In this document: positions 349 to 19,755 of the stretch, piece after piece
How the letters are laid out: every line of letters begins with the position of its first letter
Position numbering within the stretch: the stretch's first letter is position 1
Origin: a virus
Virus record (IMG/VR): IMGVR_UViG_3300006924_000154
Location: 1-25,029 of that record
Strand: one strand, 5' to 3'
DNA length: 25,029 nucleotides
Notes under the pieces: generated by a model
Database searches by the model: none
The model's input: only the letters and a program-made list of their open reading frames with translations
What the model was told of the DNA's origin: nothing
Made by a program: the position numbers and the translations under genes

Positions 349-555
349 TCAATATTTTTTTCTTAGACCAGAACCAGATCTAATGACAAAACCGTTGTAA
401 TATGGGTTTTTTGTTAGAACAACATAAGTTGAGATCATTTCTACTTTCTTTTTCAACTTAGTATCAAAGCCATAATTCTTACCCTTTATTGTTCCAACTT
501 CCCATTTTTTTGATTTGTGGTTCATGAACTCTATTTCTTCTCCAGCTTTATACAT
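349..555 (-). CDS. Hypothetical protein, 68 aa, SH3-like composition
   Basis: Small basic protein (ATG at 553-555) that overlaps the end of the dCMP deaminase gene by 25 bp and closes the nucleotide-modification operon. The alternation of short beta-like segments (AGEEIEFMNHKSKKWEVGTI) resembles a small SH3-like barrel, but I cannot name a family. No function is claimed. Confidence 0.6.
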   Translation of the reverse strand: MYKAGEEIEFMNHKSKKWEVGTIKGKNYGFDTKLKKKVEMISTYVVLTKNPYYNGFVIRSGSGLRKKY

Positions 556-965
556 GATATGCCTGCTTTGTTTAGTAGGTTTTTTCCGTTTTGTTTTCTA
601 TATTCTAAATGGTAGACTACCCTTTTGATCTTTGCTTGAATAATTAACTTAGCACAATCAAAACATGGTAGCATAGTGCAATATAGGGTTGATCCTTCTG
701 ATGAGATTGTTGAAGTTGCACATTTTACTATGGCATTAGATTCAGCATGAATAACTTCTGATTTTGTAACATTATCAACCTCGCAAGTGTTATTAAAACC
801 AGTTGGAGTCCCGTTATATCCCATTGCTATAATAGTTCCATCTTTTACTAATATGGCCCCTACTTTAGCTCTTTTTGCTTTAGAACATAAGCTAATCTCT
901 TTGGCTATCTCAATATAAGTGTAATCACTGACTGACAAGATGTTGCATTTTTTGTGTAAACTCAT
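531..965 (-). CDS. dCMP deaminase (zinc-dependent)
   Basis: Cytidine/deoxycytidylate deaminase fold, 144 aa from the ATG at 963-965. Zinc ligands and catalytic glutamate are visible: HAE at residues 73-75 and PCFDC at 100-104. 'RAKVGAILVKDG' and 'GYNGTPTGF' are typical of phage dCMP deaminases. The enzyme turns dCMP into dUMP for dTMP synthesis. It overlaps the upstream thymidylate-synthase-like gene by 41 bp and the downstream 68-aa gene by 25 bp. An ATG at 987-989 (MICQDQKAMS...) would add 8 residues; a longer reading uses TTG at 1004. I prefer 965 because it gives the usual spacing to the first conserved helix. Next to a dCMP hydroxymethylase it would divide the dCMP pool between dUMP and modified dCMP. 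Confidence 0.85.
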   Translation of the reverse strand: MSLHKKCNILSVSDYTYIEIAKEISLCSKAKRAKVGAILVKDGTIIAMGYNGTPTGFNNTCEVDNVTKSEVIHAESNAIVKCATSTISSEGSTLYCTMLPCFDCAKLIIQAKIKRVVYHLEYRKQNGKNLLNKAGISCIKLEKK

Positions 966-1725
966 AGCTTTCTGATCTTGGCAAATCATTAAGCTTAAAA
1001 TCAATCAAATCTTTTACTTCATAACTACTATGGATCTTAGGTAAATTAATGGGATGCACTTCTTCGTTATTTTCCACAATGGAGGTAACCATTTTTAAAT
1101 GTCGTTCATAAAAGTGTAATGAATCTGCTTTGTGAAAATAAGTTCCCACCTCAAGTTTAGGGTAGAACTGTTTTAACATAATTAAAACCATTTCTCTTAT
1201 AAAAAAGAATTGAGGTACATCAATGCATGTTCCATATATTAAGTCGTTTGATCTCATTGAGACACTCATATTAAGCTTATTGTCTCTTATCCTAAATGAT
1301 ATAGCATTTGTGCAAATTTTGTCACTTGATTCACTCATCATCACTTCTGGTCTATTTAGAACAATAGTAGCTTGCCTTGAATCCTTATCTTCAATAAGCT
1401 TATCAACAATGTATTGGAACTGGTTTTCAGTAAAAAAATAGTAACCATAGTTTGAATTGTAGTATGGTTTTTTCTTGTTTTTTATAGTAGCCCAGAAAGA
1501 TGATGTCTCTTCTATGTAGGTGTTGTTCCTATCTCCAGATAGATACCAGTTAAATTCTTTAGCGATATATGATAATGATAGTTTTCTACTTGGGAAGTTT
1601 GCAAATGGTTGATCAATATAAAAGCAAAAATCTTCTATCTCATAACATTTAATCCCTCTAGCGTTTATCTCATTAGATCCAAAGTATAGTGTTTTAAAAA
1701 TATCTTTCCAGTTCTGACAAATCAT
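925..1725 (-). CDS. Thymidylate-synthase-family enzyme, predicted dCMP hydroxymethylase
   Basis: 266 aa from the ATG at 1723-1725; a TTG at 1734 would add 3 residues. The numbers here count from that TTG. Recognisable thymidylate synthase blocks are 'DSRQATIVLNRPEVM', the catalytic Cys141 in 'KICTNA', 'MRSNDLIYG' (Arg161, Asp164) and 'DSLHFYERHL' (His207, Tyr209). Aligned with E. coli ThyA from the conserved Arg (R166), position 177 is Asp172 ('YGTCID' against 'LGLPFN'). Asn at that site reads dUMP, and Asp is the known signature of T4-type dCMP hydroxymethylase and its relatives. The His after the catalytic Cys in ThyA is Thr here. The predicted reaction is dCMP plus methylene-tetrahydrofolate to 5-hydroxymethyl-dCMP. 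It overlaps the kinase gene upstream by 32 bp. A dCMP methylase is an alternative product. Confidence 0.78.
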   Translation of the reverse strand: MICQNWKDIFKTLYFGSNEINARGIKCYEIEDFCFYIDQPFANFPSRKLSLSYIAKEFNWYLSGDRNNTYIEETSSFWATIKNKKKPYYNSNYGYYFFTENQFQYIVDKLIEDKDSRQATIVLNRPEVMMSESSDKICTNAISFRIRDNKLNMSVSMRSNDLIYGTCIDVPQFFFIREMVLIMLKQFYPKLEVGTYFHKADSLHFYERHLKMVTSIVENNEEVHPINLPKIHSSYEVKDLIDFKLNDLPRSESYEFTQKMQHLVSQ

Positions 1726-2242
1726 TGCTTTCAATTGTGTTTCCGTTAAAATTTAACTCAATTAATTTTTTTATAGTTTGATATTCTTTATGTTGAATAT
1801 CTCTTAGATTTTTCGGTCTATATTTATCATCTTCTACAATTGGTATTGGACTCATTAAACATATGTGATCGTAGCAAAACTCCTGAACAAACTCAAAGTG
1901 ATTGTGCAAAGATTCACTCAATCTGTAAAAGTTTTTTTGATTCTTCTTTGTTAATTCCTCTATGTTGATGTAGGTGTTTAGATAGTAGAATGAATCAAAA
2001 ATCGATCTATCTATTAAAACATCTGTGTTTTTTACACAATCTATTTCTTGTAAGATTTTGGCCATTATGATTTTCTCTTGAAAAGAGAAGTATTCATTTG
2101 GCTTAGATCTTATTTCATCAATGTCAATATCATACTTTCTTACCTCTTCACCTAAAATTTTAAAATATGGGTATTTATTTTTTAAGAGATTGATCATAGT
2201 GGTCTTCCCACTGTGGCATGCACCACTAAAAGCTATTCTCAT
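1694..2242 (-). CDS. P-loop (AAA-type) kinase, putative deoxynucleotide kinase
   Basis: 182 aa, ATG at 2240-2242. Walker A is GACHSGKT (residues 7-14), and 'VLIDRSIFD' (75-83) corresponds to the DRS-like segment of nucleoside and nucleotide kinases. 'DDKYRPKNLRDIQ' near the C-terminus looks like an arginine-containing lid. This fits the AAA_28/NadR-like group of small P-loop kinases common in phages. The gene is wedged between the carbamoyltransferase (17-bp overlap) and the predicted dCMP hydroxymethylase (32-bp overlap). My inference is that it phosphorylates the modified deoxycytidine monophosphate towards the triphosphate. A kinase with another substrate cannot be excluded. Confidence 0.7.
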   Translation of the reverse strand: MRIAFSGACHSGKTTMINLLKNKYPYFKILGEEVRKYDIDIDEIRSKPNEYFSFQEKIIMAKILQEIDCVKNTDVLIDRSIFDSFYYLNTYINIEELTKKNQKNFYRLSESLHNHFEFVQEFCYDHICLMSPIPIVEDDKYRPKNLRDIQHKEYQTIKKLIELNFNGNTIESNDLSELERYF

Positions 2243-3824
2243 ACAAAAGGATGTTTTCTATTTCTGAATCTTCTCTTACTTGGTAGTTGTAGTTTAACTT
2301 TACATCTCCATGTGTAAAAACTATTGGCTGGCCATGAACATTAAATGAGGTGTTGACTAAACATTTCACTCCTATTTCATTGCACTTTTCTAAGATCTTG
2401 TAGATAAGTGAACTCTCATCATCAATTACTTGAGGACGCCCAGAATATCTATCTTCAAGTGGATATTGGTGCATTACACCATCATATTCATCATGACTAA
2501 CAGATTGATTGTAGTCATGAGTTATGATCATGAATTTATTACTACCAACAACCTTTTTTACGTCTTCTTTTTTAAAGAAAAAATCAACATTCTTACGTAG
2601 CATAACAGGCGCACATGGCATGTATGTGTCTCTGCCGTTTATCTTGTTTACATGATCAACTATTTTTTTCCTTGGTAGAAAGATAGAAGACGTGTTGCAT
2701 AAAGCTCTTGGGCCAAATTCCATATCACCTTGAACAATGTTGACTATTCCACCATTAGTTATTGATTCAATGATCTGTGACATACTATATTGAGATCTTT
2801 TTTTCTCTTCCACTTTCCTCTTACCAAACCTTAAAGATCCAATTTCAAGTCCTTTAACAGCACCTAAAGCCGCGCCCTGATCACCACAAACTGGCATTAC
2901 ACATATTGTTTTTAAGGCATTGGCTAAGACATTGTTTAACTTCACGTTGTAGAAAACTCCACCTGCACAACAAACATTCTTATTTTCAAGTCCTATGAAC
3001 TTGACCATTTTCATGACAGTTTGTTCAAGTAATGATTGGACAAAATAGGCAACAATGATTTTTGTGTCACTATCTTCTTTAAAAACGCTAGTCACGTCAT
3101 TTAGCATTTGATAAACATCTTTCCTAGCCTCATCAAGTAGTTCAAAAGGAATCAGGGATTCTGAAACAATTGGGATGGTTGAATTACACAAACCATCTAC
3201 GTAAATTTTTACGTATTTAGATATTAAAGGATCTAGTACTTGCTTATCCTCTATTGATATGTGTGATTCATATCCAAGTAGTTTGTACTCATCTTGATTT
3301 TCTTTCATTCCAAGGAAACCAATAGAATATTGATACAACAAGCCAAGAGAAAACTTGTATGTGTAAGAACTCCAAATTTCACTCTCAATATTTAAACCAT
3401 CATAACTGAAAACAGAAAATGACTTACCAAAGTTTCCAAATCCATCAATAACAAGAGAAAAACCGTTTGCCTCTCCATTGTGTTCATAGTTGAAATTAAC
3501 GGCTGACTGAGCATGTAATTTATGATGATCAATATGATCTTCAACAGTGCAATTATAGTTCTGAATCAGATCATTCAGAGACTTTTGATCAACGTACTTG
3601 TTGTCAATATCCCTATTAGTAAACCAATCACTTATCGATATCTTACATCCTGATATGTCGATGTGTTTCTTGATTTCATTTATGGCATCAATGGGCCAGT
3701 TTGAACTGCTTTTAATTTTATCAAAACGCTCTTGCTCATAGCCAATTATTTCCTTTGTTGTCTCGTTGTAGTAAACTGCAGACGCATTGTGTCCTACAGT
3801 TATAAGTAAATTCTTATTGCTCAT
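2226..3824 (-). CDS. NodU/TobZ/CmcH-family carbamoyltransferase, predicted 5-hydroxymethylcytosine carbamoyltransferase
   Basis: 532 aa with the complete two-domain layout of the family. The N-terminal Kae1/YrdC-fold ASKHA domain has the metal-binding HHKLHA (residues 100-105), 'LVIDGFGNFGKS' (124-134), 'QDEYKLLGYE' (177-186), 'GGVFYNVKLNN' (288-298) and 'CGDQGAALGA' (313-322). The C-terminal domain has 'GDMEFGPRAL' (366-375), 'YMPCAPVMLR' (401-410) and 'LVNTSFNVHGQP' (489-500). Family members use carbamoyl phosphate and ATP to carbamoylate a hydroxyl group. A phage-type member is known from metagenomic work as 5-hydroxymethylcytosine carbamoyltransferase, making 5-carbamoyloxymethylcytosine. 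The neighbouring predicted dCMP hydroxymethylase supplies the matching hydroxyl. ATG at 3822-3824, overlapping the MazG-like gene by 11 bp. The substrate is inferred from context. Confidence 0.85.
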   Translation of the reverse strand: MSNKNLLITVGHNASAVYYNETTKEIIGYEQERFDKIKSSSNWPIDAINEIKKHIDISGCKISISDWFTNRDIDNKYVDQKSLNDLIQNYNCTVEDHIDHHKLHAQSAVNFNYEHNGEANGFSLVIDGFGNFGKSFSVFSYDGLNIESEIWSSYTYKFSLGLLYQYSIGFLGMKENQDEYKLLGYESHISIEDKQVLDPLISKYVKIYVDGLCNSTIPIVSESLIPFELLDEARKDVYQMLNDVTSVFKEDSDTKIIVAYFVQSLLEQTVMKMVKFIGLENKNVCCAGGVFYNVKLNNVLANALKTICVMPVCGDQGAALGAVKGLEIGSLRFGKRKVEEKKRSQYSMSQIIESITNGGIVNIVQGDMEFGPRALCNTSSIFLPRKKIVDHVNKINGRDTYMPCAPVMLRKNVDFFFKKEDVKKVVGSNKFMIITHDYNQSVSHDEYDGVMHQYPLEDRYSGRPQVIDDESSLIYKILEKCNEIGVKCLVNTSFNVHGQPIVFTHGDVKLNYNYQVREDSEIENILLYENSF

Positions 3825-4116
3825 ATTTTACAAAAGTTCCGTTGTTCATTTTTCCTTTTCTGTCCTTGATCATTTCGTAGGCTGAATCAATGCAATCTTC
3901 TATTTTTAAACCACATAGATAAGAAAGATTTGTAAGCACAACAACACAATCTCCTATTGCATCAATAATATCATCTTCATCTTCTTCTAAAATTGCTGAA
4001 GATAGTTCTCCTACTTCTTCGACTAGTTTCAACACTTGAGTTTTAGGATCTCCTTCTATGAGGATACCTCTATCAGATGCCCATTCTCTAATTAATATAA
4101 ATCTTGGATGTTCCAT
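3814..4116 (-). CDS. MazG-like nucleotide pyrophosphohydrolase
   Basis: 100 aa from the ATG at 4114-4116; a TTG at 4143 lies inside the -7 box and is unlikely. The first metal motif is EEVGE (33-37) and the second is 'DAIGD' (52-56), with Asp in place of the usual leading Glu. The C-terminal 'DRKGKMNNGTFVKY' is typical of phage MazG-like proteins. Such enzymes cleave (d)NTPs to (d)NMPs and pyrophosphate. First gene of the modification operon, 25 nt after a TAnnTTTG box. A tempting inference is dCTP hydrolysis, feeding dCMP to the hydroxymethylase and clearing unmodified dCTP as T4 gp56 does, although gp56 is a different family and the specificity is not visible. Confidence 0.8.
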   Translation of the reverse strand: MEHPRFILIREWASDRGILIEGDPKTQVLKLVEEVGELSSAILEEDEDDIIDAIGDCVVVLTNLSYLCGLKIEDCIDSAYEMIKDRKGKMNNGTFVKYEQ

Positions 4117-4140
4117 TTTTCGTTGTTTTGGTTTATAAGG

Positions 4141-4166
4141 CAAAAATAAGTATAAAGTTTTATACT
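4141..4166 (-). promoter_or_regulatory. Early-type promoter with palindromic operator (copy 2), drives the modification operon
   Basis: Minus-strand TATTTTTG (4141-4148, TAnnTTTG) lies one base from GTATAAAACTTTATAC (4150-4165), a near-perfect copy of the palindrome at 320 and 18288 with one changed centre pair. The leader ends in CCAAAACAACGAAAA before the MazG-like ATG, 24 nt from the -7 box. No TTG -33 box is evident. Confidence 0.65.
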
Positions 4167-4935: not shown

Positions 4936-5143
4936 CTTTTAAAAGTATTGTACCCCCGTTCTTACGAACTAAAGCCTGACCGACTACAAACACAGATTCT
5001 TGCATTCCGTTTATTTCTACCATGATAGGTTCTTTAGTCTTGATTGCTTCTCCTATTACCCTTCGAAAGTAAACAAGATTCCCAGTGTTTTTTTTCTCGT
5101 GGTAATCCTGGATAGTAGTCCACTCTTCAACTTTCACTGACAT
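4928..5143 (-). CDS. Hypothetical early protein, 71 aa
   Basis: ATG at 5141-5143, coupled to the preceding gene by a TAATG stop/start overlap, and it overlaps the annealing-protein gene by 8 bp. Mixed alpha/beta composition with a beta-rich second half (EPIMVEINGMQESVFVVGQA). No family recognised. The tight packing between a DNA-binding protein and a recombination protein suggests a role in DNA metabolism, but nothing in the sequence shows it. Confidence 0.65.
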   Translation of the reverse strand: MSVKVEEWTTIQDYHEKKNTGNLVYFRRVIGEAIKTKEPIMVEINGMQESVFVVGQALVRKNGGTILLKDV

Positions 5144-5649
5144 TATCTATATCTATTTGTGTACAATTTTGATTTTATTTTAAATTTCTCTCTCAACTCT
5201 TCAAGATCTTCTGAAATTAAATCAAAGGTTGAAAGAACTTCTCGACATAGCTTTTCAACTTGTTCAACTTCGCTATTTTCTTGCTCTAAGTTTACAGGTT
5301 CAGGATTTGAAAACTTATCAAGTTCCTTGACGATGTCAAAAATATCTTGATTTGGAATCTTATTGTTTGGACCAACTGGCTGAATCAATTCAAGTATTCT
5401 CTTTTTTGAGTTCAAAACAGTTGCGTGATCTCTACCTCCTGAAACCTTTCCAATTTGATTGAGTGTGAAAAGAGTGTTTTTCGATGCGATGTAGTGATAC
5501 AAATGTCGAGCAAGAACAAAGTCTCCATCTCTTCTTTTACTGATCACGTTTTCTTTTGATTCACCCATGATCATACAGACATCATTTAAAATAGATTCAA
5601 GCCTTGAAAAAGCGTATTTATCACGGAATTTTTTTCTTGTTTCGTTCAT
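5143..5649 (-). CDS. DnaA domain IV-like DNA-binding protein, no AAA+ domain
   Basis: 168 aa, ATG at 5647-5649. Residues 12-90 match the C-terminal DNA-binding domain of DnaA: 'CMIMGESKENVISKRRDGDFVLARHL' type helices (25-50), then the signature 'IGKVSGGRDHATVLNSKKRI' (66-85), close to the bacterial 'GRDHTTVL' motif that contacts the DnaA box. The ATPase domain (III) and domains I-II are absent. The rest (120-165) is an acidic, Glu/Leu-rich probable coiled coil. First gene after an early-type promoter. It could recruit or compete for host DnaA boxes or mark the phage origin. Domain identity is firm, role inferred. Confidence 0.8.
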   Translation of the reverse strand: MNETRKKFRDKYAFSRLESILNDVCMIMGESKENVISKRRDGDFVLARHLYHYIASKNTLFTLNQIGKVSGGRDHATVLNSKKRILELIQPVGPNNKIPNQDIFDIVKELDKFSNPEPVNLEQENSEVEQVEKLCREVLSTFDLISEDLEELREKFKIKSKLYTNRYR

Positions 5650-8553: not shown

Positions 8554-10908
8554 CTATAGAGTAGAAGAATCTTCACCAATCCTTGCTGAGATTGTAAAGT
8601 CAGTTACTCCGTCAGGTAATTCTGAAGCTTGAACAGTGCATTCAAGTCTGATGACATTACCGCTCGGATTTGAAATTGTGACCCTTCCACCAGTACCTGA
8701 TAAGAAAGAAAGCGAGCTTCGATTGTATTTGCTCGATGCTGAATCGTTTGCAATGTATGTTCCAACCTCTTTTGGAAATACTCTAATTAAGCCCCAAAGA
8801 TCTCCGACTGCTGGCGCTAATGTTAGATGTTCAAACTCTGCTCTAATAGTTGTATCTACCCCACTTGATTTTGATTTTATGTAAGGAGTTCCACCAACAT
8901 CAAGCAAAGTTGCTCCGTCATAACATTCAATTGTTTCGTTTATCCAATCAGTATTTGAAAGATAATCGTTTAAAGTAATGTCTACAGCTTTGTTTATTGT
9001 TTTTGTTGTGTTCTGGACTGTCACATCAGTAGAGAGCCTATATTTCAAAGACCAACCAGATATCTGAGAGAGCCTATACCAGTTTTGATTGTATCCGTTA
9101 AACTGTTCTGTGATGTCAAGAAAGTCTCCTGGCAGTGTAGTGAGAAACAACTGCTCCCAATATTCCCAACGAATCAAGAAAGGATGCTGTAAATAGTAGC
9201 CATAAGAAGAGCCTGAATCCGTTGAAGTATCTCGAACAGCTTTGTATTTTGATCTTATCTCGGTAGACAAGACAGCGAAAGGTGTGTCAGGCGTTTCATT
9301 TATAAAGCGCACATCGCCAATGATAGGAGCACCAGTCAAATCAAATTCAATTTGATCAAGAATCACATCATCTTGACCTGTTTTCTCAAGATATACTTCG
9401 CCTCTTACAGCATCGATTTGAGCGTCTAAGCTTGAGCGATCTAAAAGAATAGCGGAATACCCTACTATTTCATCTTCAGGCGTGAACTCTGGAGATGTTA
9501 CTGGACTTGAAAAGTCATTCTGATCATGGAAGAAAAGCTCTGGAGTGCAGGTTATTATCGTGTCAGGAATATCAATCTTGATTTCATCAATATCGACAAA
9601 CATTAATGTGTAATTGGCTAATTCTGCAGTTAAAGCGTTGCCTACTGCATAAGCAGAAATCATGAAACGCTTATCATTCAGAGCGTCTATAACAGCTTGA
9701 GTAGATGCTCCAAAGTCCATATCAAATTCGACCGTGACTAGGCTCGTGCCTGAAGTTACTGTCAAGTTTGTAATAGCTTGAAAGCCAGTTCCGTTTTGTA
9801 TTCCGTTAATTGCTGCCGCTCCTTCTTGCTGGTTTGCTCTGTCGAAGCAGAAATTGCTTGACATAAACTCATCTTTGTTCTGATACTGTGAAGCGTCTTC
9901 TGGTAACATAATGAAATTGACACAAACAAATTCAGCGTCTCCATTAGTGTTGTCAGCAGTGTTGACTACATCGAAAGAGACTGTGACAACTGAATCCTTG
10001 ACAATTCCTAGACTATTGGAATAAACTAAATTGTCTATTTCGTATTCGGCATCACCTCCGTTGTACTCTTCACCTGCCCAGCCAGTGTTTCCAATCTTTT
10101 GATCGAAGACACCTTCTTGATAAACATTCGGATCTTGAAGAGTTCTTAGTGCTCGAATCCTAAAGACGTACTTCAAAGCGTTTATCAGTCTAAAATACTT
10201 TGGCGCAAGACGTGGCGAATTAAGCAAATCAGTAATCTGAGGAGCTAAGAACATTGGGTGAATAATGAAAGTCTGACTAAGCGTGAACTTGTAGCGATAA
10301 TTTATGCGATCATCACCAGCAGTTGTGTTCGAAACTAGAACGTCATCCAAACCTGTGATTCCAAGCTGCCAATCTTTTTTTCCTAGAGGATTCATTAAGA
10401 TAGGAGTCGCACCAATAGGATTTGCACCATATTCATAACGCATTAAAGAGCCGTCAACTTTTGAATTGAAGTTGGTCGCTTCTGCGTTTTCAATTAGGCC
10501 GTAGTCTAAAATGATTCCTTCAGACTCTTGAATCAAGTGGATCTTTCCAGTATTCTCAAGATTAGAGACCATTGAGGCGAAGCCGCTGATTCGAATCTCA
10601 TAATCGCTTGGCTTCTCTATAATTACATAAAGATTTGAATCGTTTGTTCCTGAATTAGAGCCTACAACCGAAAGAGAATCTCCAACATTAAAGTCAGTAG
10701 CAAAAGGCCAAGTTGCAGTGATCCAGTCATTCGTGGTCATGCCAGGGTCACCGAAATACACTTCATCAGTGGCGTTCATTTCAACCCAAGTTTCAACACG
10801 AATTTCAATGTTGACTTCGATTTTCTGGAACATATTTCCTTTGAGATAGTCAATAGTTCCAGTGACATTCTCTTCGTTTATCTCAAGACTCTCTAACCAG
10901 ACTGGCAT
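8554..10908 (-). CDS. Large tail-tip/baseplate structural protein, 784 aa
   Basis: Long beta-rich acidic protein, ATG at 10906-10908, overlapping the small coiled-coil gene by 26 bp. No signal peptide, membrane segment or enzyme motif. Its position after the tape measure and tail-hub-like genes, and its size, fit a baseplate or central tail-tip protein. The C-terminal 120 residues (ending TISARIGEDSSTL) look like a separate Ig/jelly-roll-like beta domain. Similar proteins of unknown detail occur in flavobacterial siphoviruses; no specific domain is named. Confidence 0.65.
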   Translation of the reverse strand: MPVWLESLEINEENVTGTIDYLKGNMFQKIEVNIEIRVETWVEMNATDEVYFGDPGMTTNDWITATWPFATDFNVGDSLSVVGSNSGTNDSNLYVIIEKPSDYEIRISGFASMVSNLENTGKIHLIQESEGIILDYGLIENAEATNFNSKVDGSLMRYEYGANPIGATPILMNPLGKKDWQLGITGLDDVLVSNTTAGDDRINYRYKFTLSQTFIIHPMFLAPQITDLLNSPRLAPKYFRLINALKYVFRIRALRTLQDPNVYQEGVFDQKIGNTGWAGEEYNGGDAEYEIDNLVYSNSLGIVKDSVVTVSFDVVNTADNTNGDAEFVCVNFIMLPEDASQYQNKDEFMSSNFCFDRANQQEGAAAINGIQNGTGFQAITNLTVTSGTSLVTVEFDMDFGASTQAVIDALNDKRFMISAYAVGNALTAELANYTLMFVDIDEIKIDIPDTIITCTPELFFHDQNDFSSPVTSPEFTPEDEIVGYSAILLDRSSLDAQIDAVRGEVYLEKTGQDDVILDQIEFDLTGAPIIGDVRFINETPDTPFAVLSTEIRSKYKAVRDTSTDSGSSYGYYLQHPFLIRWEYWEQLFLTTLPGDFLDITEQFNGYNQNWYRLSQISGWSLKYRLSTDVTVQNTTKTINKAVDITLNDYLSNTDWINETIECYDGATLLDVGGTPYIKSKSSGVDTTIRAEFEHLTLAPAVGDLWGLIRVFPKEVGTYIANDSASSKYNRSSLSFLSGTGGRVTISNPSGNVIRLECTVQASELPDGVTDFTISARIGEDSSTL

Positions 10909-11110
10909 ATTTATCTCTTAATTTTTTAACTTTGTCATGGATTTCGATTTCTCCTTCCATGATTTTTGCATACTGCTGAAGCTCTTCATCCGTTTTAGGC
11001 TTCAAGTCTTTTGTCAAGCTCTCAAGAACTTTTGGAGCAGATTTTAAAAACTCCAGTGAGCCTTGCAAACCTTCTCTTATTTTTTTTATATCATCTTCCA
11101 ATTGGCTCAA
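10883..11110 (-). CDS. Small coiled-coil protein between tail genes, up to 75 aa
   Basis: No ATG is available at the front of this frame: it must start at TTG 11110 or TTG 11101 (70-75 aa). It nests between two tail genes, overlapping the 618-aa gene by 20 bp and the 784-aa gene by 26 bp, which supports it being real. Almost entirely helical and charged (DDIKKIREGLQGSLEFLKSA...). Function unknown; possibly a tail assembly or tip chaperone. Confidence 0.55.
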   Translation of the reverse strand: MSQLEDDIKKIREGLQGSLEFLKSAPKVLESLTKDLKPKTDEELQQYAKIMEGEIEIHDKVKKLRDKYASLVRES

Positions 11111-12947
11111 GGATAACCTGTTTTAAGTTGTTAGTAAAAAGCTTTCTTTGACGTACTACAAAAGTAGCTAATCTCGTGAAAGGATTCCAGTTACAAGATA
11201 CGACTTCAACAATTTCACCTGAAGGTAGCTTGACAGCTCTATCTTCAATCACGTTTTGAACGTCTGTAAGATTCATCTCCACTTGATCATATTCAAATTC
11301 ATATCTCTGTGCTGAGTTTGCAGTAGGTGCAAAAGTATTCGAAATGTGAAACTCGTTGAAGAGATTAAGAGCAGTTAATTTAGTATCGTTTAAAGCAGAT
11401 ATTTTGTTGAGTCTATAGTTTGAGTTTACATCAAGAAGCGCCAACTTTGGAACAGTAATCATGTCGGTATCAAGAAGCATCATGCCGATTCTGTTGTCGA
11501 TAAGGTTTTCAAGCCCAGGATCAGTAAGACGTGGAACGGGATCGAAATCAGCTTTGATTTTTATCCCAATAACGGATAAGGCTGACTTTAGTTTGTTGAT
11601 TGTCTTAATAGCTTTGTTAACTACGCTTATAACTCCATTTGCCAAATTCACAAAAACACCAACAACTACACCAATGTCATCAAGAAGAGCATCAGCAATT
11701 TTCTCAGGAATAGTGAAAGTTGTTTTTCTTGTAGCTCTAGCAAAAGGACTTTGAACTTGGTTGAGATTTTTAAGAAGCTTTAAAGTAGGATCTGTCGATA
11801 CTTTCAAATCAAGAATCGCTTGCATGTTATTCCCAGTCCAGTTGTTTATCGTTTGCTTTTCAACTGAATCGTATGAGAATGAAATCAAATAGCTTGAAAC
11901 AACTTCTTCAGCGTTTGTCTTCCAATTCTCAACATCGTATTGAGGAAGCTTAAATCGAGCTGTTGTCAACTTCTTATTTCTTTTCTCAATAGAAAGCTGC
12001 TTTCCATTGATTACAACCTTAGCATTAAAGGTGTCTTTGATTGCTCGAAGTAAGTCACCAAACGTGCCTTGAAAATATCCGTTTTGTTCTTTATTGTTTG
12101 GCGCAAAGAAGCCCAAGATTCTATCATCTTCAACATCGGCAGGATTTGAAAAGCTCTCTGGAATAATATGCAGCTTTGACCAAGTAGACTCAAAAAGAAA
12201 GTCGCTTGTGTATGTAAGCCCTTTAAAGTCGCAAGCGATTTCGATTAATCGGTTTACTGACATCGCTGGTTTATACTTTATTTTCTGAATAATAAGAGCA
12301 ATTAAATCAAGAATCAGATTTAATATTGTAACAATCAACAAAAGAGCGTATAAGATTCTAAAAATTAACTCAATTACACCGCCAACAGCTTCCCATCCTG
12401 TTCCGATCTTTCCTAGGGCAGCACTAACTTGATTAAACGCATCCTCAATTTCGACTGTGCAAAATACTATCGTAACAGTAGTGATCATTGCATCTGAGTA
12501 ATTTGGAACACTGCTCACGACATAAGGAACAAACACGAAGTCTGAGTCTTTAATCTTATCGATTTCGCGCAAGTATTCAAATGTGAAACTGTCAGCTATA
12601 TCATTAAGCCAATCAATTTTTGCGACTGGTGTGCTATCAGCAACGACTTGATTTCTACCCCAATTTGCAGTTGATAGGTCAATATAACCATCAAACAAAT
12701 CAAGCGAGCTTCCATTTTCTTGAAGTGTAATCTTGTGCGGAACTCCTTCAAAGACTCCAGCTCCTCCACTCATGCCAAGATTAAAGTAGTCAAGCAAATC
12801 TTGAGCTTCTTTATCTACCCACTCAAAGCCTACAATGTTGACCTGCCTATCTGTGCTGTCGTTGTCGAAGTTTATTTCAATGGAAAGCTCTTGATGATTC
12901 TTAGGAACTTGAACAGACTTGCCGTTTATCTTATGCAGTTGCTTCAT
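11091..12947 (-). CDS. Tail-hub-like structural protein, 618 aa
   Basis: ATG at 12945-12947 overlaps the tape-measure stop (ATGA). The N-terminal 130 residues are beta-rich and 'VNRLIEIACDFKGLTY' (about 230-245) with the following region resembles distal-tail or hub proteins. Unusually, residues about 190-228 are strongly hydrophobic (RILYALLLIVTILNLILDLI), and a second hydrophobic stretch lies near 425-445. These could be membrane-inserting segments used in DNA delivery. Directly after the tape measure, the usual place for distal-tail/hub genes. Confidence 0.65.
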   Translation of the reverse strand: MKQLHKINGKSVQVPKNHQELSIEINFDNDSTDRQVNIVGFEWVDKEAQDLLDYFNLGMSGGAGVFEGVPHKITLQENGSSLDLFDGYIDLSTANWGRNQVVADSTPVAKIDWLNDIADSFTFEYLREIDKIKDSDFVFVPYVVSSVPNYSDAMITTVTIVFCTVEIEDAFNQVSAALGKIGTGWEAVGGVIELIFRILYALLLIVTILNLILDLIALIIQKIKYKPAMSVNRLIEIACDFKGLTYTSDFLFESTWSKLHIIPESFSNPADVEDDRILGFFAPNNKEQNGYFQGTFGDLLRAIKDTFNAKVVINGKQLSIEKRNKKLTTARFKLPQYDVENWKTNAEEVVSSYLISFSYDSVEKQTINNWTGNNMQAILDLKVSTDPTLKLLKNLNQVQSPFARATRKTTFTIPEKIADALLDDIGVVVGVFVNLANGVISVVNKAIKTINKLKSALSVIGIKIKADFDPVPRLTDPGLENLIDNRIGMMLLDTDMITVPKLALLDVNSNYRLNKISALNDTKLTALNLFNEFHISNTFAPTANSAQRYEFEYDQVEMNLTDVQNVIEDRAVKLPSGEIVEVVSCNWNPFTRLATFVVRQRKLFTNNLKQVILEPIGR

Positions 12948-15475
12948 ATTCTCCTTGGCTTCCTTTTATGCACTATTGTTTTCTTAATACCATCTTCGAC
13001 TCGCTTGTCAATCATTTGACCAAGCTTGTCAACGTCGATGATTTGCCCCGAAGAGCTTACTGCTTTTCGAACAGAACGCAGCTCGTTCACAATATTCTTA
13101 TCACTCAAGGCGTTGATTTGATATTCACCTTTTCTGTGAGCTTCTGCCATAGCAACTAGATCTTCGTTGCTCATGTTTCCGATTTTCTTATTGTCCTGAG
13201 TTTTAATAATTCGCTCACCTTTATGCACACCAATCAAATAGTCATCTCTACCTGTGTTCCTCCACTTAGTTGCGTTATCATCACCAACTGACTCTGTTCC
13301 TTCGTAGAACAAGCCTGAAACAGTCTCAGCAATAGCAACCTGAGCGAGTGCTTTTCCTGCTGCTGTGCTTGGATTCTCTTTAAGGTACTCTGTAAAAGCT
13401 GTTAAATATGCGAGAGTTTTCTGACGCTTCTCCTGTTTCTTTGCTTCTCTATCTCTTTGAGCCTCAAGTTCTGCGGCTTTTTTCTGCTCAAAAGCAAGGG
13501 TGTTTGCTAATCCACGATCAGCCAAGTCTTCTTGTCGAGCTAAATCTTCTTTAGCGTCACCAATTTCACGAATAATTTGTTCTTGTCGCAGTTCGCTTCG
13601 CCTATTCATTGCATCCTCAAAAATTGAAGTCAATTGCTTTGCTTGCTCAATTGCTGCGTTTATCTCCTCTTGACGCTTCTGTTTTTTAAATGCTTCTTCT
13701 TCACGATTAATGTTGTTTAAATCATTAATGTATTGACGTTGAATAATTAACCTTTCTGCAGTCGTCAGCTTTTCATTTTCAAGTTCAAATTCTCTTTGCT
13801 GTTGAAGCTTTTCACGACGCAACTCAAAGACTTGTTCTGCATTTTCTTCAAATTCAGCAGTTGCAATCTGTGAATCATACACAAGTTGATCAAGCTTCTG
13901 GTAGTCATCTATCTCTTTTAGTCTCGCTTTCTCTGCAAGCTCATCTTCTTTTCTCTTTTTTGCAGCAGCCTTCTCTGCTTCTTCTTCTCGCTTTTTCTTT
14001 AATGCATTTGCCTCTCTGTCTCGTTTAGCTTTGTCCGCATCAATTTCACGCTGAACACGTCCGACTGCTCTGACTGCCTCTGTGCGAAGTCGTTCGTTCT
14101 CTCTTTCTATTCGTGCGATTTCTAACAACTGCTGTGCGACAAGCTTCTGACGTGGCAGGTTGTTCGGGTCATTCTTCAATAAGCCTTGAAACATCTTTAA
14201 TCGTTTTCGCGCAACACTTAATTCTGCATCTTCTCTTTCCGTGAGTATGTCAACAGCATCGCTCGCGGCTTTTACCCTTTTAGAAAATGGGAGATATGTA
14301 TCGTCACGCACCTGCTTTAATTCTTCAAGTGTGTCAATTTGCTTTGCCGCAAGCGCTTCAGCTCTGATGGCTTCAACCTCCAAATCGGCAAGTCTATTGG
14401 TTGCTAGAACCTCAATTTCACCTCGAATAAATGAGGACATGCCAAATAGTTGCTTTGTAAGAAAGGATGCTATTTTATCCAAAGGGCCGCCACCTTTACC
14501 ATCAGCACCAAGTGATTCTGCAAAATCGTTTGCAAAACCCATTTGCACAGCTTTAAGCCTTGTTGTTGCCGATGCAAAATCAAGTGCGCCTGCTGTGCTA
14601 CCTAAATATAAAGCTGTTAATCCAGACACAGCACCTGCAACAGCTCCAATAGGTGACAATAAAGCACCGAATTTTTTCTTTAAGCCGCCAAGCGACTGAC
14701 CCATGAAATCTTGTTTCTCAATTGTTTTGCCAAGCCCTTTTCGATAATTACCTACAGACCGCTGAAAGTTTCCGATGGATTCATCGTTTGCCTTTACCTG
14801 CTTGTCAAGCTCTGTGATTGATTTTTTTAATGAAACTCCAAAAGGTGATTTTCGTTCTTCCGAAGTGAGCTTTCTGTATGTGTCGCGAAGCTTACCAAGA
14901 TGAATACTAAGTTCATCGAAAGAAGTACCTGCAGCATTTGCTTGCTTTACCTGCTGACGCATTGTAATTCCAAGCTGTTGGTTTGCAACTGTCAATTCTT
15001 TCTGTCGCTTTGAAAGAACAGTTGACTTTTCCACAAAATTGCTTGTACTTATAAGCCCTCGATCAAGTTGCTTTGTAAGATCTTTTTGCTGCTGTGCAAG
15101 CTTTTTTAACTCAAGGCGATAGCGAACAGACAGCTTGACGTTTTGTGTAAAGCTTCCGTTCACGTCGTCAACTTGCTTATTCAGCTCTTTGTTTACAACG
15201 ATTTCTTCAGCAATTGATTCGTCAAGTTGCTTTGTTGATTCTTTGACGATATTCTGCGTCTTTGCAAGTGTCTTTGATGTTTCATTCAAGTCACGCACCT
15301 GTTCTGTGTATGCCCTCAAATCACCACCAGACTTGATTGATCCACCCTTCATGATCTGTTGGATCACCTCAAGAACTTTGATAAGTTGCTGTTCCAGATC
15401 ACGACCCTCTTTAATGACACCAATAAGCGCATCTGGTGCAATTATGTCTGACCGTTCAATTCGGTTTTGTGCCAT
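12944..15475 (-). CDS. Tail tape measure protein
   Basis: 843 aa, ATG at 15473-15475. Long Lys/Glu/Gln-rich coiled coils (about 20-240 and 360-690) flank a hydrophobic, Gly/Ala-rich segment at about 275-305 (LLSPIGAVAGAVSGLTALYL). This is the classical tape-measure layout, setting tail length and probably aiding DNA entry. At roughly 1.5 angstrom per residue it suggests a tail near 125 nm (inference). It overlaps the chaperone-like gene by 20 bp. A tail-tube gene and completion gene lie upstream and hub proteins downstream, as expected. Confidence 0.85.
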   Translation of the reverse strand: MAQNRIERSDIIAPDALIGVIKEGRDLEQQLIKVLEVIQQIMKGGSIKSGGDLRAYTEQVRDLNETSKTLAKTQNIVKESTKQLDESIAEEIVVNKELNKQVDDVNGSFTQNVKLSVRYRLELKKLAQQQKDLTKQLDRGLISTSNFVEKSTVLSKRQKELTVANQQLGITMRQQVKQANAAGTSFDELSIHLGKLRDTYRKLTSEERKSPFGVSLKKSITELDKQVKANDESIGNFQRSVGNYRKGLGKTIEKQDFMGQSLGGLKKKFGALLSPIGAVAGAVSGLTALYLGSTAGALDFASATTRLKAVQMGFANDFAESLGADGKGGGPLDKIASFLTKQLFGMSSFIRGEIEVLATNRLADLEVEAIRAEALAAKQIDTLEELKQVRDDTYLPFSKRVKAASDAVDILTEREDAELSVARKRLKMFQGLLKNDPNNLPRQKLVAQQLLEIARIERENERLRTEAVRAVGRVQREIDADKAKRDREANALKKKREEEAEKAAAKKRKEDELAEKARLKEIDDYQKLDQLVYDSQIATAEFEENAEQVFELRREKLQQQREFELENEKLTTAERLIIQRQYINDLNNINREEEAFKKQKRQEEINAAIEQAKQLTSIFEDAMNRRSELRQEQIIREIGDAKEDLARQEDLADRGLANTLAFEQKKAAELEAQRDREAKKQEKRQKTLAYLTAFTEYLKENPSTAAGKALAQVAIAETVSGLFYEGTESVGDDNATKWRNTGRDDYLIGVHKGERIIKTQDNKKIGNMSNEDLVAMAEAHRKGEYQINALSDKNIVNELRSVRKAVSSSGQIIDVDKLGQMIDKRVEDGIKKTIVHKRKPRRI

Positions 15476-15978: not shown

Positions 15979-16413
15979 TTATTTCAATGTCTCTTTAATT
16001 ACAATGTCTCGAATGATTGGGATAATGAAATTAACAAGTTCTGTCAAGCTGACATCTGTTAAGCCGATAATTTTCCCATACTCAAGCAAATCTTTGTCTG
16101 GCTTCTGAGTTTGGGCCTCTATTGTCACAGAATCTCCATCGATGGAACTGATCTTGAAGGATTCATAAAAGGCTCCAGTGTCATAAAGTGTGTAAGGAGT
16201 TCCAGCTTGCTTAACACCTTCAGACATTATCTCAGTGAGCTTTGAATAAACCGGAAGAGAAGAACCATCAGAAGCGATTCCAAGTCTAAGCTGTCCTTCT
16301 GTGTTAAATTCAATTATTTGATTTTGTGCATCGCCTCTGGTAAAAGTTAAGAAGAAGACTCTTCTGTCTGTTATCTTCTGTAGATTCTTTGCAACTTCAA
16401 TTAATCTGTTCAT
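15979..16413 (-). CDS. Putative tail completion / morphogenesis protein
   Basis: 144 aa, ATG at 16411-16413, first gene of the tail block. 'LYDTGAFYESFKI' (about 78-90), then 'LLEYGKIIGLT', match the pattern 'DTGxLxxS...YG...GL' of phage virion-morphogenesis/HK97 gp10-like tail completion proteins that sit at the head-tail or tube end. A TAnnTTTG box is 4 nt before the ATG. The similarity is in short motifs, so the family call is moderate. Confidence 0.5.
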   Translation of the reverse strand: MNRLIEVAKNLQKITDRRVFFLTFTRGDAQNQIIEFNTEGQLRLGIASDGSSLPVYSKLTEIMSEGVKQAGTPYTLYDTGAFYESFKISSIDGDSVTIEAQTQKPDKDLLEYGKIIGLTDVSLTELVNFIIPIIRDIVIKETLK

Positions 16414-16417
16414 ACTG

Positions 16418-16425
16418 CAAAAATA
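16418..16425 (-). promoter_or_regulatory. TAnnTTTG -7-like box at the head of the tail operon
   Basis: Minus-strand TATTTTTG, then CAGT, then the ATG of the tail completion gene. First gene of a block that runs uninterrupted to the terminator at 5711. No clear -33 TTG. Confidence 0.45.
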
Positions 16426-16432
16426 AATACTT

Positions 16433-16440
16433 TAGATTTC
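16433..16440 (+). promoter_or_regulatory. Possible -7 box for the plus-strand phosphoesterase
   Basis: TAGATTTC differs from TAnnTTTG in the last base and lies 26 nt before the ATG at 16467, so a divergent promoter pair in this 53-nt gap is likely, but the element is weak. Confidence 0.25.
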
Positions 16441-16466
16441 GCGATGAGAAAATAAAATTTAATAGA

Positions 16467-17177
16467 ATGAGTAGACCAAGATTAAACAAAGGACTTAATT
16501 GGCTTGTGGGAAGTCTAAAAGATGAGTCTAACAGGGTCTTAGTTATAGGTGACCTTCACGAGCCTTTCTGTCTTGATGGATATCTAGATTTCTGCATAGA
16601 GCAAAAGGAGAAGTTTAACTGCAACAGAATTGTATTTATAGGCGATGTGATCGACAACCACTTTAGCAGCTACCACGAAACAGATGCGGACGGGCTTGGG
16701 GGTGCAGATGAACTAGACTTCGCAATTAAAAAAATAGCAAGGTGGCGAGATGCTTTCCCGGTTGCTACCGTTATTATTGGAAACCATGACAGGTTAATTA
16801 TGCGCAAAGCTCAAACCTCATCAGTTCCTACAAAATGGATCAGAGAATACAAAGATGTATTAGAAGTTCCTCAATTTGATTTTGTAGACAGACTTGTTAT
16901 TGACGATGTGCAATACATTCATGGCGAGGCGGGAACAGCTAGAACCAAATGCAAGGCAGACATGATGTCCACAGTTCAAGGACACCTACACACTCAGGCT
17001 TATACTGAATGGGTTGTCGGCCAGAAGTTTAAGGTCTTCGGAACTCAAGTAGGGTGTGGAATAGATCACAACTCATATGCTATGGCGTACGCTAAAAGAG
17101 GGAAGAAGCCCGCTATTGGCTGCGTTGTTGTTCTTAATCAGGGCCGAACACCCATTAACTTACTTATGAACTTATGA
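16467..17177 (+). CDS. Calcineurin-like metallophosphoesterase
   Basis: 236 aa from the ATG at 16467 (MSRPRLNKG...). All five metal motifs of the superfamily are present: GDLH (Asp29, His31), 'GDVIDNH' (Asp60), 'GNHD' (105-108), 'IHGEAG' (His152) and 'GHLH' (172-175). Two-metal phosphodiesterase or phosphatase; the substrate is not evident. One of two plus-strand genes, coupled to the next by an ATGA overlap, inserted among minus-strand tail genes. Phage members are often of unknown role. DNA-end, RNA or signal-nucleotide cleavage (anti-defence) are possibilities and none is shown here. Confidence 0.85.
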   Translation: MSRPRLNKGLNWLVGSLKDESNRVLVIGDLHEPFCLDGYLDFCIEQKEKFNCNRIVFIGDVIDNHFSSYHETDADGLGGADELDFAIKKIARWRDAFPVATVIIGNHDRLIMRKAQTSSVPTKWIREYKDVLEVPQFDFVDRLVIDDVQYIHGEAGTARTKCKADMMSTVQGHLHTQAYTEWVVGQKFKVFGTQVGCGIDHNSYAMAYAKRGKKPAIGCVVVLNQGRTPINLLMNL

Positions 17178-19551: not shown

Positions 19552-19755
19552 CTACTCATCGTTTGTTGGTATTTCAATTTGTGTTGTTTCTCTACCATTG
19601 AGCCACTCGTTGAGTATCGGTTTAAACTTTATGTATTTCTTTCCTTCAAACTCTATCGGCTCACCCTGCCAAGTGTCTTGGTCAATAGTTCCGAAAAGGT
19701 GTAAGTCAATAGCGTCTATATCTTCTTGGAAGGATGATGTTTCAAATACTTGCAT
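19552..19755 (-). CDS. Small acidic virion-region protein, 67 aa
   Basis: ATG at 19753-19755 overlaps the stop of the 905-aa gene (TAATG). Acidic, beta/alpha mixed (DLHLFGTIDQDTWQGEPIEF). No family recognised. Position between a connector-region protein and the tail tube allows a tail terminator or stopper accessory role, which the sequence does not prove. Confidence 0.6.
   Translation of the reverse strand: MQVFETSSFQEDIDAIDLHLFGTIDQDTWQGEPIEFEGKKYIKFKPILNEWLNGRETTQIEIPTNDE

Follow-up and report, generated by a model that had tools for sequence, protein, structure and literature searches.

The minus-strand open reading frame (ORF) at 925-1734 of the window, by which we mean the whole 25,029-base IMG/VR virus record that was analysed and that is probably a fragment of a larger genome, very probably encodes a dCMP 5-hydroxymethylase that would feed a pathway to 5-carbamoyloxymethylcytosine. 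From the sequence, alignments, predicted fold, gene order and recurrence of the cassette we infer both the catalysis and a protective role for the modification. The ORF belongs to a cassette of five overlapping minus-strand ORFs at the left end of the window, for a MazG-like pyrophosphatase, a carbamoyltransferase, a kinase, the thymidylate synthase homologue and a dCMP deaminase. The features are as follows:

531-1004, minus strand: dCMP deaminase-like protein (Pfam dCMP_cyt_deam_1, 2.3e-23; phrog_174, 2.9e-52)
925-1734, minus strand: predicted dCMP 5-hydroxymethylase of thymidylate synthase fold, 269 aa (Pfam Thymidylat_synt, 2e-18)
1219-1221, minus strand: codon GAT of D172, the cytosine-specifying Asp, equal to T4 D179 and E. 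coli ThyA N177 (alignments)
1309-1323, minus strand: D138-K-I-C141-T142, holding the water-positioning Asp (T4 D145), the catalytic Cys (T4 C148) and the Thr (T4 T149) (alignments; D145 role from the part of PMC6400193 drawn on here)
1555-1557, minus strand: codon of E60, equal to T4 E60 and E. coli ThyA E58, for methylene-tetrahydrofolate activation (alignments; same part of PMC6400193)
1694-2242, minus strand: dNK-like P-loop kinase, proposed hydroxymethyl-dCMP kinase (Pfam AAA_28, 1.7e-10; dNK, 1.5e-08)
2226-3824, minus strand: TobZ/NodU-type O-carbamoyltransferase, proposed 5-hydroxymethylcytosine carbamoyltransferase (Carbam_trans_C, 2.2e-29; Carbam_trans_N, 1.9e-16)
3814-4143, minus strand: MazG-like nucleotide pyrophosphohydrolase that may supply dCMP by a dCTPase-type activity (Pfam MazG, 4.6e-08; phrog_1992, 1e-35)

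The overlap geometry of the five ORFs suggests one translationally coupled unit, the overlaps depending on the starts as given by the ORF list. ORF 925-1734 starts with TTG at 1734 or with ATG at residue 4. The deaminase, which carries HAE and PCxxC motifs (read by eye), starts with TTG at 1004 or later and its gene overlaps the end of the putative hydroxymethylase gene.

An earlier note had placed an Asp at the ThyA N177 position, twelfth from the Arg of the MRSND motif, and the alignments bear this out. The minus strand of 1204-1230 translates as TCIDVPQFF, the Arg of MRSND is R161 (1252-1254), and D172 is the twelfth position counted inclusively from it; both the PDB sequence search and MAFFT set D172 opposite T4 gp42 D179 and E. 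coli ThyA N177, and the stretch from MRSND to the D172 column is gap-free against T4. As the structural tools report aligned ranges and not residue pairs, residues were assigned from the sequence alignments. C141-T142 correspond to C148-T149 in T4 gp42 and to C146-H147 in ThyA, so that the change of the His after the catalytic Cys to Thr that was noted earlier is real; as an added oddity it does not hold, for T4 gp42 and MilA share the Thr. The Asn177 and His147 that are hallmarks of ThyA are thus Asp and Thr in ORF 925-1734.

In the T4 structure, as described in the part of PMC6400193 drawn on here, Asp179 serves N3 protonation, Glu60 activates methylene-tetrahydrofolate, and the attacking water is placed by Ser94, Tyr96 and Asp145, with mutants at 94, 96 and 145 impaired. 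The T4-type Asp179, catalytic Cys148 and Glu60 are all found in ORF 925-1734 (D172, C141 and E60), as are the three water-positioning residues (S94, Y96 and D138). Altogether E60, W81, S94, Y96, R120, D138, C141, T142, R161, S162, D164, D172, H207, Y209 and R211 match T4 at an overall identity to gp42 of 28%. Counting against a hydroxymethylase, the T4 folate-site residues K28, N53, R59, I81 and R177 have A, S, K, F and C as their counterparts, and Gln takes the place of R124, the second phosphate Arg of T4.

Both Pfam and the predicted model (mean pLDDT 90.3, pTM 0.90, 21 sequences) give ORF 925-1734 the thymidylate synthase fold. In the PDB sequence search its best match was T4 dCMP hydroxymethylase (7.7e-21); a thymidylate synthase from a bacterium came next (6.7e-15), then MilA (1.8e-14), and E. 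coli ThyA scored lower (about 6e-08). VIA-align of the model ranked MilA at the top (Z 24.1-24.8), then T4 dCMP hydroxymethylase (Z 21.8-22.4) and ThyA (Z about 20-21), and Foldseek gave the same order, with MilA and the T4 enzyme ahead of ThyA. The check that the earlier note had proposed, alignment and structure model against T4 gp42 and ThyA, came out on its side, as the sequence alignments give Asp and the model lies nearer to the T4 enzyme than to ThyA. Recognition of dCMP in the manner of T4 gp42, which the note had suggested, is favoured by the Asp, the other catalytic residues, the best PDB match and the gene neighbourhood, and its warning of mis-annotation was justified, since Pfam and PHROGs name the protein thymidylate synthase and several phage records use that name for such genes. 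What accounts for the gene is its cassette, on which the note is silent.

Asp at 177 signals cytosine only and does not separate hydroxymethylation from methylation or FAD-dependent hydroxylation, so these are told apart by the other residues and the adjacent carbamoyltransferase, not by the Asp alone. At T4 positions 145/149/179, ThyA reads L/H/N, DLP4 N/P/D, the SPO1 dUMP hydroxymethylase D/N/N, RB69_048 E/T/D, and T4, MilA (printed alignment) and ORF 925-1734 D/T/D. D138 (T4 D145) is common to the T4, MilA and SPO1 hydroxymethylases and absent from ThyA, DLP4 and the RB69-type dCMP hydroxylase. SPO1 gp29, which shares this Asp with ORF 925-1734, differs from it in having Asn at 177 and 147 and in being uracil-specific. 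ORF 925-1734 shares with T4 gp42 the Asp that specifies the base, the Cys-Thr pair, the Asp that positions water, E60, the MRSND motif and the fold; several folate-site residues differ, and the decoration is glucose in T4 where the window has an adjacent carbamoyltransferase. On sequence grounds the residues of ORF 925-1734 point to dCMP hydroxymethylation.

We then compared the neighbouring genes with known systems. The carbamoyltransferase has PDB matches to novobiocin carbamoyltransferase, TobZ and GdmN; its TobZ-type N and C domains occur together with the nearby D177 thymidylate synthase homologue and the dCMP deaminase. Working on sewage and coastal samples, Yang et al. (eLife 2021; MetaGPA, PMC8670742; the part of the paper drawn on here) selected phage DNA with modified cytosine and saw carbamoyltransferase domains occur together with those of thymidylate synthase, phosphoribosyl-ATP pyrophosphohydrolase and dCMP deaminase; positions 177 and 147 of the thymidylate synthase homologues ranked as the top two discriminators. 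In the same part of PMC8670742, one purified carbamoyltransferase makes the carbamoyloxymethyl form from 5-hydroxymethyl-dC in single-stranded DNA and from 5-hydroxymethyl-dCTP, and is inactive on 5-methyl-dCTP and 5-hydroxymethyl-dUTP. As far as that part of the paper goes, its cassette and that of the window share the carbamoyltransferase, thymidylate synthase homologue, pyrophosphohydrolase and dCMP deaminase, the changes at 177 and 147, and non-TobZ residues at W408, G421 and R423; the hydrolase is MazG-type in the window, in contrast to the phosphoribosyl-ATP pyrophosphohydrolase domain described there. The window also has an adjacent dNK-like kinase, whereas the word 'kinase' does not occur in the main text of PMC8670742. 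The cassette of the window fits the published description closely, and the broader significance of the Asp finding has been published already. PMC8670742 was the only paper on the carbamoylated base found among the matches listed, in a search that left subscription papers and preprints mostly out of scope and may have missed later work.

The positions W408, G421 and R423 are those named in PMC8670742 as most different in carbamoyltransferases from modified contigs, the passages drawn on naming positions and not the replacing residues. In the PDB alignment I363, C376 and T378 of the window carbamoyltransferase stand opposite them (TobZ numbering on the assumption of a six-residue tag in the chain numbering), so that it departs from TobZ at all three. 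Among the 51 readable proteins of the 53 carbamoyltransferase loci described below (L150 and L151 being without the C-terminal motif), TobZ 423 is Thr in 49 (Arg in L131 and L132) and TobZ 421 is Cys in 47 (Gly in L122, L138 and L145, Met in L104); HHU4 has Gly at 421. The four Kyanoviridae controls have Gly at 421 and Arg at 423. Trp is found at 408 in none of the 51, and as Ile stands there in three of the four controls and in the window, position 408 does not discriminate in this set and only 421 and 423 do. In the set compared here no other carbamoyltransferase exceeds about 41% identity to that of the window, and the enzyme assayed in PMC8670742 falls outside this sequence comparison.

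A PDB sequence search gave nothing for the kinase at 1694-2242 at E values up to 1, and it was therefore modelled (mean pLDDT 90.1). The nearest structures are deoxynucleoside kinases including deoxycytidine kinase, with thymidylate kinases lower, at TM about 0.4-0.7, a likeness at the level of fold only. Thirteen aligned kinases share a conserved P-loop (G-x4-GKT) as well as a DR[SAT]-x2-DS motif. From its gene position and the need for such a step, the kinase would act on 5-hydroxymethyl-dCMP.

The association of the two enzymes recurs across viral contigs. A single-sequence search with the window carbamoyltransferase returned 10 stretches, none of them holding a relative, while the Xp15 carbamoyltransferase gave 4 loci and an alignment of five carbamoyltransferases gave 53. 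A thymidylate synthase homologue lies near the carbamoyltransferase at 48 of these 53 loci, on the same strand in all 48 and at a median gap of 737 bases (maximum 3,431), though 48/53 is not an unbiased rate for carbamoyltransferases in general because the search motifs were drawn from the window's clade. At the other five (L131, L141, L142, L150 and L151) the carbamoyltransferase gene lies at the contig end or no more than about 3.4 kb from it. All 55 homologue rows at carbamoyltransferase loci read D/T/D. Near-copies stay in these counts; at 90% identity the 53 loci fall into 40 clusters, each with at least one locus that has a homologue. L133, L140, L144 and L149 are on contigs identical with L087-L090, and L109/L110 on contigs identical with L035/L036. 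Kinases of the window's dNK-like type were found at 17 of the 48 loci and a second kinase type at 24 (several with weak scores), the dCMP deaminase was detected at 26 and a MazG/pyrophosphohydrolase at 17. The carbamoyltransferases of P-SSM2, S-CAM8, HTVC008M and C48C1, all Kyanoviridae, had a homologue at none of the four loci within up to 6 kb each side. Like the window, Xanthomonas phage Xp15, Acinetobacter phage HHU4 and Bacteroides phage BF503P2 hold carbamoyltransferase, kinase and D/T/D homologue together; unlike it, Xp15 and HHU4 have the second kinase type, with no Pfam match, and BF503P2, whose two homologues include one without E60, showed neither dCMP deaminase nor MazG in the stretch read.

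A scan of viral contigs with the ORF 925-1734 protein found a relative at 100 loci; the 80 best, with 83 homologue rows, were taken further. The best-scoring homologue reads Asp/Thr/Asp at T4 145/149/179 in 79 of these best 80 of 100 loci, L083 being the one exception, so chance is no concern for the Asp. Across the 83 rows Asp177 is found in 81, Thr147 in 81, the Asp at T4 145 in 82, the catalytic Cys in 83 and Glu60 in 81. The T4 Ser94 column has Ser in 36 rows and Gly in 45, and Ser94 therefore does not mark the family throughout. Asp177 is missing from two rows, a canonical ThyA (L009_1, L/H/N) and L083 (D/N/N, SPO1-like). The former shares a phage contig with a D/T/D homologue (L009, 350-1318 and 4114-4989, the ThyA having N177 and H147), and the latter (L083:5920-7191; Asn177, Asn147 and Asp at T4 145) is probably a dUMP hydroxymethylase. 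Around the closest homologues found (L005-L014, 39-45% identity), the fetched stretch of up to 6 kb on either side held no carbamoyltransferase, which indicates that the enzyme family also serves other modifications. Two loci, L095:3644-7678 (AXL_3) and L096:3987-7229 (Manatee Spring podovirus), combine a pyrophosphohydrolase, a D/T/D homologue and a deaminase with a SAM-type methyltransferase. The decorating enzyme thus seems exchangeable, a methyltransferase replacing the carbamoyltransferase in L095 and L096.

A tree was built from 94 homologues, with warnings of long branches and uneven composition on some of the rows. It gives the ORF 925-1734 protein, at a support of 98/88, a sister clade of nine homologues; these have M, I or L in place of Glu60, and all nine lie directly after carbamoyltransferase and kinase. 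A second homologue with Glu60 then follows in seven of the nine (L099, L104, L109, L111, L112, L120 and BF503P2), and in L100 and L102 the contig ends before a possible second homologue. The Glu60-less homologues keep D/T/D, and Trp82 is also lost in the rows read. In L001 such a pair beside a carbamoyltransferase, one homologue without Glu60 and the other intact, lies at 10471-11277 and 13351-14031. A separate Gln60 clade lies just before the carbamoyltransferase (L124, L125, L126 and L130, with L129, cut before residue 60, grouping there); it has Glu at T4 D171, and no intact homologue was detected in the stretch fetched around these four loci and the L129 fragment. ORF 925-1734 itself keeps Glu60, so the plain reading is a hydroxymethylase. 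As the fragment ends 924 bases after the gene, a second homologue may lie beyond the left end in this phage. It is unlikely that ORF 925-1734 does, or nears, a second job, as a heterodimer partner or in a folate-independent reaction at the cytosine C5 methylene; in the case of such a reaction, the carbamate could serve as a leaving group for another substituent.

Four other identities for ORF 925-1734, namely dCMP methylase, FAD-dependent dCMP hydroxylase, CMP hydroxymethylase and ordinary thymidylate synthase, were each set aside on residues. A dCMP 5-methylase, the enzyme to be expected in Xp12 with its 5-methylcytosine DNA, would reduce the intermediate with hydride from tetrahydrofolate, and Asp at 177 alone turns ThyA from dUMP to dCMP methylation (the part of PMC8670742 drawn on here); it is nevertheless very unlikely here, since DLP4 has N and P at T4 145/149 where ORF 925-1734 has D and T, DLP4 carries a dihydrofolate reductase gene two genes off its homologue, and a methyl group offers no hydroxyl to the adjacent carbamoyltransferase. 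DLP4 stands in for Xp12 in this comparison, its modification being taken from its relatedness to Xp12: by the part of PMC9206674 drawn on here, Xp12 DNA carries 5-methylcytosine, and for its relatives, DLP4 in the same group among them, this is only inferred. Xp12 was not among the 20 records listed of the 26 that matched in a search with the DLP4 gene.

The second of these is an FAD-dependent dCMP 5-hydroxylase on the thymidylate synthase fold, of the RB69 type (PDB 9iqc and 9iqu). The RB69_048 sequence is near letter-for-letter with both entries, end to end for 9iqc, and the function is taken from the entry titles, which name a riboflavin-dependent monooxygenase with dCMP and FAD and a phage dCMP hydroxylase. 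The shared fold (VIA-align Z about 20), Asp179 and Thr149 are consistent with this enzyme, yet RB69_048 has V, T, E and N at T4 82, 94, 145 and 171 where ORF 925-1734 has W, S, D and D as in T4, columns whose discriminating value is drawn from one family, and we consider it extremely improbable. A MilA-like CMP hydroxymethylase acting on a ribonucleotide is scarcely credible even with MilA as the top structural match (Z 24.8), because ORF 925-1734 has R120 and S162 in place of the MilA Lys133/Ala176, which serve ribose where deoxy-specific enzymes have Arg/Ser (the part of PMC5175136 drawn on here). An ordinary thymidylate synthase that tolerates the Asp, the name given by the Pfam and PHROGs family models, has next to no likelihood, with N177 and H147 both replaced, S94 and D138 T4-like and hydroxymethylases as the best solved matches.

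As to the source of the window, the major head protein is closest to Flavobacterium phages (43-44% identity over 72-77%, ten matches listed), and a large protein at 11091-12947 (minus strand) matches only Flavobacterium phages, in 32 of 32 records. Judged by these similarities, the source is a probable Flavobacterium-type phage, for which a Bacteroidetes host would be expected. No tRNA genes were found in the window, and the 20 window proteins scanned gave no Pfam match to dihydrofolate reductase, ThyX or glycosyltransferase. Elsewhere the window encodes a protein of 168 aa that has the C-terminal DNA-binding domain of DnaA (5143-5649, minus strand; Pfam Bac_DnaA_C, 1e-14), a metallophosphoesterase (16389-17177) on the plus strand within a minus-strand region, and a 905-aa protein (19755-22472, minus strand) with several near-copies, by eye, of the stretch around 'ENSDSSYTNTVASGGTLVLPDITVTDSDGS'.

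With ORF 925-1734 as a dCMP 5-hydroxymethylase, the cassette would work as follows. The MazG-like pyrophosphatase would convert dCTP to dCMP. Cys141 would then form an adduct at C6 of dCMP, with N3 protonated by D172, and the one-carbon unit would be taken from methylene-tetrahydrofolate activated by E60; water placed by S94, Y96 and D138 would attack the exocyclic methylene and yield 5-hydroxymethyl-dCMP. The dNK-like kinase together with host enzymes would raise this product to the triphosphate, and the carbamoyltransferase would cap the hydroxyl, drawing on carbamoyl phosphate and ATP, either at the triphosphate stage or within single-stranded DNA, while the dCMP deaminase would divert dCMP to dUMP for dTTP. 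DNA carbamoylated in this manner would withstand host nucleases.

To what is known the window adds one more carrier, a tight five-gene order and a frequent kinase. It supports the view that the base-contact residue and two neighbours sort phage thymidylate synthase homologues by base and reaction, a sorting that family-level annotation misses. A probable Flavobacterium-type phage would thereby join the carriers of the carbamoyl-cytosine cassette, of which the kinase appears as a frequent part.
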